Below, in pieces: positions 4,386 to 50,495 of a DNA stretch of 52,408 nucleotides. Below the pieces are notes generated by a model, which saw only the letters and a program-made list of their open reading frames with translations, was not told the origin of the DNA and made no database searches. The DNA is taken from NCBI GenBank assembly GCA_903928685.1, contig CAIYRS010000041.1:1-52408 (forward strand), written 5' to 3'. The DNA is from an uncultured Methylococcaceae bacterium. GTDB taxonomy: Bacteria > Pseudomonadota > Gammaproteobacteria > Methylococcales > Methylomonadaceae. Within the stretch, counting starts at the first letter, position 1, and each line of letters starts with the position of its first letter. The translations under genes were made by a program, and so were the position numbers.

Positions 4386-4716
4386 TTAATAGCTGATGTT
4401 GTGCAGGAGTTTTCTGCAATTTAAAAATACAAATGATGAGTCGCTATCGCGACAGTTTTCTAATCGGGTTCTCGCACCCGAAGGCGAGCTACTTTCTTTT
4501 GCGCCGCCAAAAGCAAGTAGCCAAAGAAAAGGCGGCCCGATTGCCGCTCATGTCTTGCGCTCCTCGCATTTGTCGGGGGACGGCAGAATGGGCTTCCTGC
4601 CCATCTGCCGCCGTGCGGCATCCCTGCCGCACCCCTAACGGGCTATTCCCGACAAATACTGCGGTGCTCGACGCGGCAAACGGGAGAAAAGCGCGTTACT
4701 GCGTAACGTTGGTTTA
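4386..4716. repeat. MITE-like structured repeat, copy 1
   Basis: This is a non-coding element of about 330 bp, closely matched by the copy at 7709-8090. The left end reads TTAATAGCTGATGTTGTGCAG. The right end CTGCGTAACGTTGGTTTA is its approximate inverse complement, so the element has terminal inverted repeats. The interior holds nested hairpins: an outer stem 4568-4577/4648-4657 (ATTTGTCGGG/CCCGACAAAT), and inside it 4581-4593/4599-4610 and 4613-4620/4625-4632. No transposase is encoded. Open frames inside it are by-products of the repeat. Confidence 0.8.
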
Positions 4717-4827
4717 GGAATCGCTGAACTAATTGATTCCGATCATACTTCGACAAGCTCAGGCCGAACGGAATCAATTAGTTACCGTTCGGCCTGAGCT
4801 TGTCGAAGGCTTTATTCAGCGATTCCT
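4716..4827. repeat. Nested REP hairpin with CTTCGACAAGCTCAGG arms
   Basis: The inner arms 4748-4771 and 4785-4808 are fully complementary (CTTCGACAAGCTCAGG... and its mirror CCTGAGCTTGTCGAAG). The outer arms 4716-4728 and 4815-4827 (AGGAATCGCTGAA/TTCAGCGATTCCT) are also perfect. The element directly abuts the rlmI stop codon and the right end of repeat copy 1. It could terminate rlmI transcription, though there is no clear U-tract. A decayed right arm appears at 49731-49760. Confidence 0.8.
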
Positions 4828-6024
4828 TTATAAACTAGGCGAAACCGAGCAGAAAAAGGTTTTTAGGTATTCGGTTTCCGGTATCGCGGGATCAATGGGG
4901 TGGTCTGGCCCTTGTCCGCCGCTGGCAAAAAATGTCAGATGGCGGTCTATATGCCGTCCTGATGAGCGCAAAATCTCATGTAGGTTGTCGCGGCTGAGGT
5001 GAAAAGAGCAAGATGCAGACACCAAGATGCCATTTTTTGCCAAAACCTGCAAGGCTAAATGATTCAGTCGCCGATAGGCTTCGTAACCTTGTTTGAAGTC
5101 TTTTTTGCGTTTGATTAACGCCGGTGGATCCAGAATGATGAGGTCAAATTGTTGGTTGTCTAAACGCGCTTGTTTAAGGTATTCAAAGACATCGCTGCGG
5201 ATGAATTGGCAGTTATCGGCAACGCCGTTGAGTTGCGCGTTGCTTTGCGCTAAGGCCACTGCCGATTCTGACGCGTCCACACCGATGACTTCGCTAGCGC
5301 CTGCTTTGGCTGCCGGAATGCTCCAGCCACCCGCGTAGCAGAATAAATCCAATACCCGCAAATTGTTTGCCATGCTTGCCGCCAAAGCACGGCTGTTGCG
5401 GTGGTCGTAAAACCAGCCAGTTTTTTGTCCGTCCAGAATGTCGATGCTAAACAAGGTGTTGTTTTCTTCGATGACCAATTTTTCTGGCAAGCTGCCATAG
5501 GCGGTTTCTGATTCTAAGCTTAGGCCTTCCAATTGCCGTTGGCTATTGTCATTTTTTAAGATAATCGCTTGCGGGGCGAATAACTCAACTAAAGCATCTA
5601 GCAACGCGGCTTTGCGTACTTCCATGCCTGCGGTGGTGATTTGTACCGATAGCACATCGCCAAAGCGGTCTATCACTAAGCCCGGCAAGCCGTCGCTTTC
5701 GCCGAATACCAAGCGGTAATAGGGTTTGCTGAAACATTTTTCCCGCAACGCCAGCGCAGCACTCAGGCGTTCTTTAAAAAAATTAACGCCGCATTTGAGG
5801 TTGGCTTTCCGTGACAGCAAGCGCGCGCAGACCAAGGTTTGCGGGTTGATATAGGCGGTGCCTAGGGCTTTGCCGTCGATGCTGTGGATTTGCACTAAAT
5901 CACCGGGGGCAAATTGGTCTAAAGGCGATTTGTTGGTATCGACTTCGTTGCTGAATACCCAGAGATGGCCTCTTTTCAGGCGTTGGTCTTCGTTTTTCTT
6001 TAAAAATAAAATGGGGTGTGCCAT
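4828..6024 (-). CDS. rlmI: 23S rRNA (cytosine-5-)-methyltransferase, RlmI family
   Basis: This is a class I SAM-dependent methyltransferase of the RlmI/YccW family, which makes m5C1962 in 23S rRNA. An N-terminal PUA-like domain (RLKRGHLWVFSNEVD) is followed by a central domain and a Rossmann methyltransferase with the SAM loop VLDLFCYAGGWSIPAAKAG, the motif DLIILDPPALIK and the catalytic-Cys segment LVSASCSFHLS. I chose the start MAHPILFLKK at 6024. A longer frame to 6078 adds 18 unconserved residues that run into the upstream gene's coding end. With this start the ATG lies 1 bp beyond that gene's stop, so the genes are tightly coupled. Confidence 0.93.
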   Translation of the reverse strand: MAHPILFLKKNEDQRLKRGHLWVFSNEVDTNKSPLDQFAPGDLVQIHSIDGKALGTAYINPQTLVCARLLSRKANLKCGVNFFKERLSAALALREKCFSKPYYRLVFGESDGLPGLVIDRFGDVLSVQITTAGMEVRKAALLDALVELFAPQAIILKNDNSQRQLEGLSLESETAYGSLPEKLVIEENNTLFSIDILDGQKTGWFYDHRNSRALAASMANNLRVLDLFCYAGGWSIPAAKAGASEVIGVDASESAVALAQSNAQLNGVADNCQFIRSDVFEYLKQARLDNQQFDLIILDPPALIKRKKDFKQGYEAYRRLNHLALQVLAKNGILVSASCSFHLSRDNLHEILRSSGRHIDRHLTFFASGGQGPDHPIDPAIPETEYLKTFFCSVSPSL

Positions 6025-6025
6025 A

Positions 6026-6703
6026 TCAATAGCTAAGCTCAAGGTGATAGCCGCCAATTGGGGTGCTGGTGGCGGCAAGTTGTAAGGTGATGTCTAAAGT
6101 GGCGGCTGGGCTGAAGACGGCGGTGTTTGGGTTATGTAAGTAATCACTGGGTTTAAAAATGCGGTAAGTGAAGGTGTTGCCGCTGAAATCCAGTAAGGCC
6201 AGTTTAATTTTTGGGCAAGCTTGGATAAAAGCCGCTTCATTGACAATCGTGACTTTCAGGCGGTATTGGCTAGGGTTGATTGCCGTAAAGCTGCTTTGTA
6301 CCACGGTCAGTTCGTCAAGGTTTTGGTATGTCGGTAGCTGGCAATGCAGAAAACGGCAAAGCTTTTGCAAACGTGGACGCAGCTGTAGATTTTGGCTGAG
6401 GCGATAACTTTCAAAGTACAGGCCTTGGCTAATTAATAAGGCGATGCCGAGGTAAACGCCTGTTCGCCAATGCCGTGATGGCTTAGCGGCGGTTTGCTCC
6501 CAAGGTAACGCTTGTCCTGGATCTAAGGTTTCTGCCAGCAAAAACGGTTGCGGCGTGGGCAAATCGGGGTGGTGTTCGCTGAGCCGTTCTAAGGCATCAA
6601 AGTGGTATTGACATGCAGTGCAGTAGGCAATGCCCCGGCTTTCCCTTAGTTGCGTTACGGTCAGCGGCTGCGCTTGTTGGCAGTTGGGGCATTGCGTATA
6701 CAT
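6026..6703 (-). CDS. Zinc-ribbon DUF3426 membrane protein
   Basis: From the start MYTQCPNCQQ the protein has an N-terminal zinc ribbon (CPNC...YCTACQYHFD, MJ0042/zinc_ribbon_5 type), a linker, a single membrane segment (TGVYLGIALLISQGLYF) and a C-terminal DUF3426 domain predicted to lie in the periplasm. Such proteins commonly sit next to prmA; their biochemical role is not established. A longer frame to 6763 would add 20 residues overlapping prmA, so the 6703 start (225 residues), 1 bp past the prmA stop, is preferred. Spacing indicates a prmA-this gene-rlmI operon. Confidence 0.87.
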   Translation of the reverse strand: MYTQCPNCQQAQPLTVTQLRESRGIAYCTACQYHFDALERLSEHHPDLPTPQPFLLAETLDPGQALPWEQTAAKPSRHWRTGVYLGIALLISQGLYFESYRLSQNLQLRPRLQKLCRFLHCQLPTYQNLDELTVVQSSFTAINPSQYRLKVTIVNEAAFIQACPKIKLALLDFSGNTFTYRIFKPSDYLHNPNTAVFSPAATLDITLQLAATSTPIGGYHLELSY

Positions 6704-6704
6704 A

Positions 6705-7586
6705 TCAAGTTTTGCGGCGGCCTGATAGGCGCATCCAGTCTTCTTGTTGGCGGGGCGGGTCAAACTCGATGTGTTGTTGGTAAGCGGCCATCACGGCGTC
6801 GGTTTGTTCTGCGAGGATGCCGGATAACACCAGTTGCCCGTTTGCCACCACCAGCGCGGTAATCGCTGGCGATAGTTCTATCAAGGGTTTGGCGAGGATG
6901 TTGGCAAGTACCACATCCGCTTGTTGTGGCTGGAATTGTTCTGGCAGATAGCAGCTGATTTTATCGAGGACGTTGTTTTTTATGGCGTTATCTTGGGTGG
7001 CGGTCAGGGCTTGCGGGTCGATGTCGATGGCGTGGGCGGTTTTTGCGCCTAATAGCAAGGCGGCAATCGCTAATATGCCGGAGCCACAGCCGTAATCAAT
7101 CACGGTTTTGCCGTGTAAGTCTTGGCTTGCCAGCCATTCCAAGCACAAGGCGGTGGTCGGGTGTGTGCCTGTGCCAAAAGCTAGGCCGGGGTCTAAGGTG
7201 AGGCAGACGGTATCCGGCTCGATTTGTTCTTGGCCTGTAGGGCATACCCAGAGTTTGTCGGCAAATTTCATGGGTTGGTAAAATTCCATCCATGCCCGTT
7301 CCCACGCTTGATCTTCAATGGCTTGGTAATCCCAGGCCAGTAGGTCTTGGTGAGGGTATAGCCCGTAAACTTGGGTTTTTAGGGTTTCTGGGTCAGCGTC
7401 CAATTCATATAAGGCGATGACTTGGGTGTGTGTCCAAATTTTGGTTTCACCAATGGCGGGTTCGTACACGGGTTCGTCTTCGGCATCCATGTAAGTGACC
7501 GACACCGCGCCTTGGCTGTCGAAAAAATCGGCAAGTTGCGGGGCGAGTTGTTCGTTAGTGGTGACGGTGATTTGGTGCCAAGGCAT
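6705..7586 (-). CDS. prmA: Ribosomal protein L11 methyltransferase PrmA
   Basis: PrmA trimethylates ribosomal protein L11. The start MPWHQITVTTNEQLAPQL gives 293 residues, the same length as the E. coli enzyme; an upstream ATG at 7646 would add 20 non-conserved residues. An N-terminal L11-recognition domain is followed by a SAM-binding domain with VIDYGCGSGILAIAALLLGA, and the DPGLAFGTGTHPTT motif is present. In many gammaproteobacteria prmA follows accC directly. Here a hairpin and a 380-bp repeat element separate them, so it may need its own promoter. Confidence 0.97.
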   Translation of the reverse strand: MPWHQITVTTNEQLAPQLADFFDSQGAVSVTYMDAEDEPVYEPAIGETKIWTHTQVIALYELDADPETLKTQVYGLYPHQDLLAWDYQAIEDQAWERAWMEFYQPMKFADKLWVCPTGQEQIEPDTVCLTLDPGLAFGTGTHPTTALCLEWLASQDLHGKTVIDYGCGSGILAIAALLLGAKTAHAIDIDPQALTATQDNAIKNNVLDKISCYLPEQFQPQQADVVLANILAKPLIELSPAITALVVANGQLVLSGILAEQTDAVMAAYQQHIEFDPPRQQEDWMRLSGRRKT

Positions 7587-7641
7587 AGGCGGATAAGTCC
7601 AGAAAGCGATTGGGTTGGGGGGGAAGCCATAGTTATTAATG

Positions 7642-7681
7642 GACACAGGCCGGAAACCTTATCGGTTATCCGGCCTGTGTC
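7642..7681. terminator. GC-rich hairpin upstream of prmA
   Basis: A perfect 13-bp stem (GACACAGGCCGGA/TCCGGCCTGTGTC) with a 14-nt loop lies about 55 bp upstream of the prmA start. No U-run follows it on the minus strand; on the plus strand GTTTTTAG follows. It may be a terminator of transcription from the repeat side or an mRNA leader structure. The role is uncertain. Confidence 0.4.
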
Positions 7682-7708
7682 GGTACTTGCGTTTTTAGAA
7701 AGCTTGGA

Positions 7709-8090
7709 TTAATAACTGATGTTACGCAGATATTTCCTGCGATATAAAAACAAATAATAATGAGTCGCTATCGCGACAGTTTTGCTAATCGGGTTCTCGC
7801 ACCCGAAGGCGAGCTACTTTCTTTTGCGCCGCCTCGGCAACTGCTCCTGCGTTGCTCTACCTCCTGCATCCATGCAGTCGAAAAGCAAGTAGCCAAAGAA
7901 AAGGCGGCCCGGTTACCGCTCATGTCTTGCGCTCCTCGCATTTGTCGGGGGACGGCAGAATGGGCTTCCTGCCCATCTGCCGCCGTGCGGCATCCATGCC
8001 GCACCCCTTCGGGCTGTTCCCGACAAATACTCCGGTGCTCGACGCGGTAAACGGGAGAAAAGCGCGTTACTGCGTAACGTCAGTTAATAA
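7709..8090. repeat. MITE-like structured repeat, copy 2
   Basis: The left end TTAATAACTGATGTTACGCAG and the right end CTGCGTAACGTCAGTTAATAA are inverse complements apart from three positions, a clear terminal inverted repeat. The interior matches copy 1 at 4386-4716 except for point changes and a 47-bp insertion at 7834-7880. Differences such as ATCCCT to ATCCAT and CCCTAACGGG to CCCTTCGGG fall in hairpin loops, leaving the stems intact. The right end overlaps the last codons of accC, so the element sits exactly between accC and prmA. Confidence 0.85.
7834..7880. repeat. 47-bp module inserted in repeat copy 2
   Basis: This stretch is absent from repeat copy 1, where GCGCCGCC runs straight into AAAAGC. 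It is present in reverse complement, with a 2-base difference in length and otherwise near identity, at 15138-15185 inside an unrelated inverted repeat. It contains the short palindrome CTGCATCCATGCAG. Confidence 0.8.
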
Positions 8091-49636: not shown

Positions 49637-50495
49637 ACGGGGAGAAACTCCGGTTACAAAAACAAGCGGTAAATATACGCTGATAGCGCTATTAAATCGA
49701 TGGAAACTCGGCGGGGGATTGGCTTTTTGGCTTGTTGAAGGTTTTATTCAGGATTGCTTTTGGCGCTGGCGGTGAATTCGGAATTAGCCTAGGCATTGGC
49801 GCGGTAACACACAGAATCAGCGGAATGATTTCCGTTAGGCTTACGGGATAAGAGAGTAATTAGATTGAATAACTGATGTTATGCAGTAACGAATTTTTCT
49901 CCTGTGGCTATCGTTTCCGCGCTCTGGCGTTACTGCTATTAAGATAAGAGTTTAATCATTAAAAATCAGTGTATTGCATTTTTGTAGGTCGGGTTAGCGA
50001 TAGCGTAACCCGACATTTTGATGCTGAATACGTCGGGTTACGCTATCGCTAACCCGACCTACGATTGGTACGCGCCGCATGGGAACTATCAAGCAATGCC
50101 AATCAGTTGCAGCCATGCGGCGTTGGATTTTTAGAGAAAGTGAACATAAAAATTTTGCCGCAAATTTGGGTAATGCCTGCAAGGCTTGTCCGACGGTTTT
50201 TGCGGGTTTTGGGTTTGCTGTGATGAATTTGTGATTTTTTCCTTTTAATATCAATAGTTAAAAAAGTTCGGTAAGCGGCACACAACCTGCAATAGCCTTG
50301 CTTAAGAAATTGCCGGAGCACTTGTGCTGGTCAAAAAAATTGCGGGCGAATGAACATTTAAGCCAATTAACGCGATTAACTTGGCAGAAGTGATTAGTCC
50401 GGCGAATTTGTTTTATCTGCCACTTTCAAGCTTAGCCCAATGTATCAACAGGGCAGCAAGCAGCACCGATTTTTTTATAACTTTTGAGGATACCG
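49637..50495. other. Repeat-rich region upstream of dnaE
   Basis: This 859-bp region holds repeat remnants. At 49731-49760 there is a decayed REP arm (cf. 4796-4827). At 49867-49891 there is a solo terminal repeat like those of the 4386 and 7709 elements. At 49917-49950 there is a relative of the 15077 inverted-repeat arm. At 49984-50062 there is a perfect REPIN. The dnaE promoter must lie near 49640-49720. No gene recognised. Confidence 0.6.
49984..50062. repeat. Perfect REPIN, GTAGGTCGGGTTAGCG family
   Basis: Two 31-bp arms (GTAGGTCGGGTTAGCGATAG... and exact inverse complement) are separated by 17 bp. Each arm is itself a hairpin (GGGTTA/TAACCC). This two-arm design is the REPIN form propagated by RAYT transposases; no such transposase is in the window. 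Confidence 0.9.

Follow-up and report, generated by a model that had tools for sequence, protein, structure and literature searches.

The window analysed here is a 52,408-nucleotide stretch of an uncultured Methylococcaceae bacterium (contig CAIYRS010000041.1). It carries two copies of a miniature inverted-repeat transposable element (MITE), and their identity as MITEs of the ordinary kind is near certain. The element holds a folded module. Its core fold is strongly supported as a conserved module, which is common to other genera. We consider it fairly probable that the MITE carries a divergent relative of the TwoAYGGAY RNA (RF01731), which would be an RNA of the minus strand. As for the two copies in the window, they may be passengers that have decayed.

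The full element runs from CTGATGTTACGCA to TGCGTAACGTCAG, as determined from 44 full copies in the window's own genome and its relatives, and has terminal inverted repeats of 13 bp. Copy 2 is flanked by a perfect TTAATAA duplication (7709-7715 and 8084-8090). The flanks of copy 1, TTAATAG and TTTAGGA, contain no duplication. To measure target duplication, we used 30 of the 44 full copies, in which neither end has more than two mismatches. Their 7-bp flanks agree at 0.748 of positions, compared to 0.499 for swapped flanks (z 9.4). At 8 bp the z value was 2.4, and none of the other lengths from 3 to 12 exceeded 0.5. By eye, the duplicated target is similar to TTANTAA. Copy 2 lies in the gap between prmA and accC, and the empty-site comparison, made for this insertion, showed that it is absent from 13 of 13 congeneric loci with both flanks readable (L234-L246). 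End-like motifs are found elsewhere in L239 and L244, and the core is absent from all of these loci. The sequence-only reading of this DNA had described a MITE-like element with terminal inverted repeats at 4386-4716 and 7709-8090. The two copies and the defined ends stand, and target duplications and an empty site now accompany them; the limits given there take in the flanking 7-mers.

The window's genome (3.38 Mb, 117 contigs) contains at least 47 stretches that match by BLAST when the best 40 of 162 candidates are scored, some of them being pieces of one copy. The core AAGTANCCAAAGAAAAGGCGGCCC occurs 87 times with up to two mismatches (75 exact; reversed control 0), and the end CTGATGTTACGCA 99 times with up to one mismatch (control 1). 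Many copies lie close to contig ends, in line with repeats breaking assemblies. The right part of the element has matches in 9 of 21 genomes of the relatives set, own genome counted. Within the window, the end motif occurs five times at up to three mismatches, with 0.27 expected. A solo end had been placed at 49867, and by eye it is an apparent diverged 3' end on the minus strand. An inverted repeat of the GTCGGGTTAGCGATAGCGTAACCCGAC type (49984-50062, by eye) adjoins it. In relatives, five loci (L078, L079, L072, L070 and L082) hold shorter elements (92-94 bp) whose 13-bp ends are those of the MITE, in some cases mismatched, and whose body is another one and in part palindromic.

A partner insertion sequence (IS) was reached from solo ends in relatives. 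It is 1108 bp long, lies in genome G001 (L110:1497-2604) and has both 13-bp ends exact and one open frame. The encoded protein scores 362.3 bits with the NCBIfam model IS701_2 (NF049921; cut-off 250) and also passes Pfam DDE_5 and DDE_Tnp_1. A partial transposase in L111 reaches 294.8 bits against the same cut-off of 250. In the one-contig genome G027, L258 is a copy with both ends exact and a frame of 364 amino acids, and further copies are present there. An autonomous transposase with the same ends, as envisaged by the sequence-only reading, is thus found in two congeners. Within the genus, 13 of 20 genomes have matches to the partner transposase at E up to 1e-10; the matches listed for G009, G012 and G021 are only distant (29-42% identity). 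Target duplications of the partner IS, judged by eye, are 8/8 in L277, 6/7 in L270 and L116 and 4/7 in L258, with none in L110 or L257. The shared ends suggest that a transposase of the L110 type would move the MITE in trans. A gene for a Rep_3 initiator beside one end in G007 was considered as the partner and rejected, the end motif (up to two mismatches) being absent in 16 of 20 homologous loci. The remaining four are the starting locus L089, L092, where an exact end opens a copy of the IS, and L095 and L104, with two-mismatch matches. Rep_3 plasmid initiator genes in G007 (e.g., L069:2757-3872) gave eight matching stretches, some of which are pieces of one gene. In the window's own genome, the protein of L055:597-1169, about 1.7 kb from a solo end, is one that we take to resemble a REP-associated (Y1) transposase.

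The interior of the MITE holds one module only. A query of 181 bases from this interior found matches in at least 17 of 274 genomes of the class (own genome counted, up to three candidates scored per genome). The recurring architecture consists of one or two hairpins followed by ACTTTCTTTTG-loop-CAAAAGAAAGTA, the tract CAAAGAAAA and a G+C string that complements the loop; in many cases a long-range stem closing a hairpin domain comes after these. We call the ACTTTCTTTTG/CAAAAGAAAGTA stem S1, the pairing of the loop with the G+C string S2, and the tract between them the third strand. Across the phylum, the model R1, which holds the S2 columns as sequence without S2 pairing, detected the module (E up to 0.001) in 82 of 398 genomes and in 42 of 213 genera, own genome counted, with up to 14 candidates scored per genome under strict filters; a single family outside the class supplies many weak matches. 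Among named records, the core is found in Selenomonadales, Desulfuromonadales, Hydrogenophaga and a metagenome-assembled genome of Gammaproteobacteria. The pattern used to scan named-record contigs had a loop one base too long, so that its 19 stretches represent a side branch and no census. Outside the genus, 66 loci with 87 units of the module were searched for the MITE end motif. With up to two mismatches it was not found near any unit; with three, it was near 13 of them, compared to 10 for the reversed control. Because the core is conserved in loci without MITE ends, the fold would have a function of its own.

In other genera, neighbouring R1 hits are often inverted pairs, 11 of which were fetched, with a spacing of about 340-630 bp. 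Among 12 multi-hit loci, 8 hold inverted pairs and 4 are not close convergent pairs. All nine G490 loci have one module, as found by regular expression. By eye, the arms of the G636 pairs L228 and L229 differ in tract type (left TTTTCTTT, right TTTCTCTT or TTTCTTTT) and contain no long perfect palindrome; in the pair L230, TTTTCTTT is in both arms. The window copy had no match in the plasmids and phages searched, and a unit of L202 had none in the E. coli genomes searched. Units of L185 (Variovorax) and L193 (Aeromonas) have one partial plasmid match each, and four viral contigs match by exact pattern. A literature search, as judged from listings of its results, gave no description of the pseudoknot module.

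For covariation, we used the alignment A1, which consists of 41 segments chosen from 79 distinct ones, with near-identical rows and an odd minus-strand hit in L174 excluded. The motif by which these segments were gathered comprises S1 and the third strand, which biases both towards the structure, whereas S2 played no part in the gathering. Standard pairs make up 93.5% of the cells, and covariation is 0.336, compared to 0.101 in shuffled and at most 0.103 in slid alignments. Both sides change in 13 of 18 pairs, including all four S2 pairs. S2 was also measured in a set of 88 units, from which loops longer than 10 bases and loci before L039 were excluded. In its 33 units found by R1 (L184-L212), contiguous S2 pairs average 4.85 compared to 3.20 with swapped tails (maximum of 200 swaps 3.61), and 30 of the 33 have at least four. 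Compensatory stem changes, on which the sequence-only reading had placed weight, are many across genera and modest in number among copies of the genus (82 cells in 42 copies longer than 250 bp).

The third strand changes together with the arm, as in AAAAGAAA/AAAGAAAA, AAAGAAAA/AAAAGAAA, AAGAGAAA/AAAGAGAA and AGAAGAAA/AAAGAAGA. We took 96 of the 202 R1 matches listed; 93 were distinct, a few mis-parsed ones being kept, and 89 of the 93 were scored. It turned out that the third strand fits the purine arm better as a mirror than as a direct copy in 70 of the 89 units, equally in 18 and worse in 1. The summed match is 672, compared to 631 when permuted (sd 4.2; the highest of 2000 permutations gave 648). 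Read on the minus strand, the S2 arm comes first and UUUUCUUU second, and then follow the pyrimidine arm of S1, the loop and the purine arm of S1. In this arrangement the third strand would be parallel to the purine arm, with U placed on A-U and C on G-C pairs. This is the pattern of major-groove triples in pseudoknots. The core is predicted to be an H-type pseudoknot, with third-strand covariation such as a triple helix would need.

In S1 of 93 units, A.C mismatches, which are G.U on the minus strand, number 32 against 7 for G.T. In folds without wobble the count is 49 against 18, in 31 against 8 units (shuffled sequence 13 against 13); the p value of 2e-4 is, like the other strand probabilities, too small, since units of one genome or pair were counted as independent. 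The 142 hairpin loops of 91 units contain TCC 79 times and GGA once on the plus strand, compared to 10 and 4 of 71 in shuffled sequence. A TCC loop is present in 46 of the 91 units and absent in 45. Because of the S1 wobble bias and the one-sided GGA loops, we regard the module as probably an RNA of the minus strand. The sequence-only reading had suggested that the folded form matters either for movement or as RNA. Movement is explained by ends and duplications without the fold, and RNA, on the minus strand, is the likelier role; the alternative is sharpened rather than settled.

The Rfam scan of the window gave nothing at gathering scores, only matches to microRNA, long non-coding RNA and small RNA families far below their thresholds. 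Eighteen related loci were scanned as well, with the following results for TwoAYGGAY. Matches in L203 (50.6 bits) and L195 (45.6 bits) pass its threshold of 43, and a second place in L195 (37.3 bits) and one in L190 (31.9 bits) stay below it. All four have one orientation to the pseudoknot, that of the minus strand; in L203 the pseudoknot lies 20 bases beyond the matched stretch. The loop CATCCATG is the commonest TCC loop (18 of 79). In L140 there is a sub-threshold match to RsmV (20.4 bits compared to 100). Passages of the published reports describe TwoAYGGAY, a motif of human gut, gammaproteobacteria and Clostridiales, as a probable RNA (PMC2864571), place RF01731 among families with improved structures (PMC11701678) and propose CsrA binding for it (PMC4333381). 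The commonest loops here, CA-N-GGAUG on the minus strand, fit that CsrA proposal. By these likenesses the module probably works like TwoAYGGAY and is kin to it, the window copies not being claimed as members. Binding of CsrA by the module, taken by analogy, is offered as a lead.

The proposed course of events is as follows. A DDE transposase (IS701 family) acting in trans, encoded by an IS that shares the ends of the MITE, would have cut the MITE out and pasted it into AT-rich sites, giving the 7-bp duplications. The minus strand, once transcribed, would fold into a domain of GGA-loop hairpins closed by the long-range stem, then the pseudoknot, then one or two G+C hairpins. The U-rich loop of the pseudoknot would lie along the A-U-rich helix as a third strand. 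The GGA hairpins may hold a protein of the CsrA/RsmA type, and the triple-helix pseudoknot may seal and protect the 3' end of the RNA.

Several results weigh against a TwoAYGGAY-like minus-strand RNA carried by this MITE. At E up to 5, the regions around both window copies gave no TwoAYGGAY match; copy 1 gave none at E up to 10, and 15 of the 18 related loci gave none at E up to 0.5. Searched in the window's own genome, the partner transposase had no match. In A1, 41 of 500 shuffles reach the observed number of further pair types, one weak measure of five. The long-range stem pairs 7.43 of 9 positions compared to 6.89 with swapped arms (70 loci), and this effect is small. Copies within the genus have 164 wobble or A.C cells and 134 other unpaired cells compared to 3793 paired ones, and given the unpaired cells, the decay of single copies may be unhindered. 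Outside S1 there is no wobble bias (A.C 24 against G.T 18, p 0.44), and the strands do not differ significantly in folding energy (49 of 91 units, p 0.11). The dependence among units noted above belongs here as well.

It is possible that the element is nothing more than a MITE whose fold was inherited from an ancestral sequence and does nothing, the stems looking kept because the copies are young. Ends and target duplications are enough for movement, copy 1 and others have broken ends and stem mismatches, and the 87 matches to the core in a single genome have the look of a burst of transposition. However, the core is spread over 42 of 213 genera, outside the genus without these ends, and the stems covary in the sets tested (41 sequences; 88 units). 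We find this explanation unlikely, and it can still be true of the individual window copies. Alternatively, the fold may work as single-stranded or supercoiled DNA, in the manner of REPINs; it would then be a cruciform, a mirror repeat like H-DNA or a hairpin on which a recombinase acts. Mirror symmetry, the rule for H-DNA, is found in the tract; the inverted module pairs described above resemble REPINs, which are inverted pairs on a smaller scale; and wobble asymmetry is absent outside S1. Yet H-DNA does not need the loop-tail pairing S2, the S1 wobble bias and the one-sided GGA loops speak for RNA, and no relative of the L055 Y1 (RAYT-like) or IS701 proteins was found among the open reading frames of L134-L232 (mostly 1.3-8 kb). 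A DNA fold therefore seems quite unlikely to us.

Two further explanations concern genes. The plus strand might act in 3' untranslated regions, as a terminator or a structure that stabilises mRNA. By eye, the module begins directly past the stop codon in several Selenomonadales loci, and four units start 5-11 bases past a plus-strand frame. The upstream frame is on the plus strand for 26 units and on the minus strand for 17, a mixed orientation that is unreliable with 40 of 88 units unscored. The wobble and loop biases favour the minus strand, and we regard a plus-strand role as improbable. That the conserved core encodes a short protein is very improbable: open frames of 80-101 amino acids do run across both copies, but core variants and loop insertions break the frame, and the changes follow pairing. 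The TwoAYGGAY-like RNA of the minus strand remains the explanation that we prefer.

In the window, copies 1 and 2 have four blocks in common (86-98% identity), and their features are collected in Table 1. As the sequence-only reading noted, differences between them fall in loops with the stems kept (CATCCCTG/CATCCATG and CCCTAACGGG/CCCTTCGGG). On the minus strand, the loops CATCCCTG and CATCCATG read AGGGAU in copy 1 and AUGGAU in copy 2. The hairpins of copy 1, the copy that was folded, are stronger than in dinucleotide shuffles (z -6.88 on the plus and -6.70 on the minus strand), and its S1 has one mismatch. In copy 2, the pseudoknot loop is split by 47 additional bases (7834-7880), which add an AUGGAU hairpin. 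By eye, this insert is similar to a hairpin stretch CGACTGCATGGATGCAGGAGGTAGAGC.ACGCAGGA in L214 and L216 (G490, another family), and it is possible that it is a movable GGA-hairpin cassette. Just downstream of copy 1 lies a separate inverted repeat (4748-4808) with perfect 24-nucleotide arms CTTCGACAAGCTCAGGCCGAACGG.

Table 1. Coordinates of the MITE copies and of predicted structural features in the window.
Feature	Position	Strand	Remark
MITE copy 1, short form, 320 bp	4393..4712	+	decayed ends CTGATGTTGTGCA / TGCGTAACGTTGG; target duplication no longer there
Hairpin GTCGC..GCGAC	4440..4453		sequence
Hairpin CGGGT..ACCCG	4465..4480		sequence
Pseudoknot module as modelled, R1, 74.3 bits	4488..4544	+	proposed RNA on minus
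Pseudoknot stem S1, pyrimidine arm on + (GCTACTTTCTTTTG)	4488..4501	-	
S2 arm in loop (CCGC)	4504..4507	-	
Pseudoknot stem S1, purine arm on + (CAAAAGCAAGTAGC)	4508..4521	-	one base off consensus
Third strand CAAAGAAAA (UUUUCUUUG on minus)	4522..4530	-	mirrors purine arm
S2 partner (GCGG)	4532..4535	-	
Long-range stem, 5' arm CCCGATTGCCGC	4536..4547	-	
Outer stem of the sequence-only reading, ATTTGTCGGG	4568..4577	-	
Hairpin with loop CATCCCTG (CAGGGAUG on minus)	4613..4632	-	
Outer stem partner CCCGACAAAT	4648..4657	-	
Long-range stem, 3' arm GCGGCAAACGGG	4673..4684	-	
Target-site duplication TTAATAA, left of copy 2	7709..7715		
MITE copy 2, long form, 368 bp	7716..8083	+	consensus ends CTGATGTTACGCA / TGCGTAACGTCAG
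Copy 2 pseudoknot module, 54.9 bits	7813..7916	+	interrupted by loop insert
47-base insert of long form	7834..7880	-	has additional hairpin CTGC-AUGGAU-GCAG on minus
Hairpin with loop CATCCATG (AUGGAU on minus)	7985..8004	-	AYGGAY form
Target-site duplication TTAATAA, right of copy 2	8084..8090		overlaps accC stop codon
Diverged solo 3' end	49871..49902	-	by eye

A wider proposal is tentative and, in our view, rather doubtful as a whole. RF01731 might be the visible half of a larger class of mobile RNA, composed of a GGA-hairpin domain and a triple-helix pseudoknot, present in Gammaproteobacteria and Selenomonadales, often in many copies per genome and in inverted pairs; in the case described here it would be carried along by an IS701-type MITE. 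It could be a selfish or domesticated RNA that titrates a regulator of the CsrA type. If so, the copy number of an RF01731-like RNA would set the dose of that titration. This would join three topics that usually stand apart, namely a burst of transposition, a structured RNA family and a conserved signal of covariation among three strands, the last of which predicts a triple helix from sequence alone. The role of TwoAYGGAY-like RNAs could be approached in a single genome that holds about 87 natural copies. The results also suggest that part of the "repetitive DNA" in many bacteria is a conserved RNA-like fold.

Among known systems, the MITE resembles bacterial MITEs such as MITEAba12 in its short length, inverted ends, target duplications and many copies; it differs in that the core of its body is common to other genera, where the MITE ends were not found near it. 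The partner is like the IS701 family in that its transposase passes NF049921, and it has the 13-bp ends of the MITE exactly; the target duplication of IS701 itself is presumably shorter than the 7-8 bp visible here. REPIN and BIME elements form inverted pairs in high copy number, as the module does, but the module units are of about 240 bases and contain a pseudoknot. With TwoAYGGAY (clan CL00106) the module shares GGA-loop hairpins under a closing stem, whereas it is present many times over, as inverted pairs and within a MITE, and its window copies have no match to that family. Sponges of the CsrB/RsmZ type also have GGA in hairpin loops. They are, however, a single regulated gene, in contrast to tens of dispersed copies with putative CsrA binding. 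In pseudoknots of the telomerase RNA and SAM-II type, a U-rich loop forms a triple helix parallel to the purine strand. The module would have the same topology on its minus strand, a likeness that comes from covariation and not from shared sequence.

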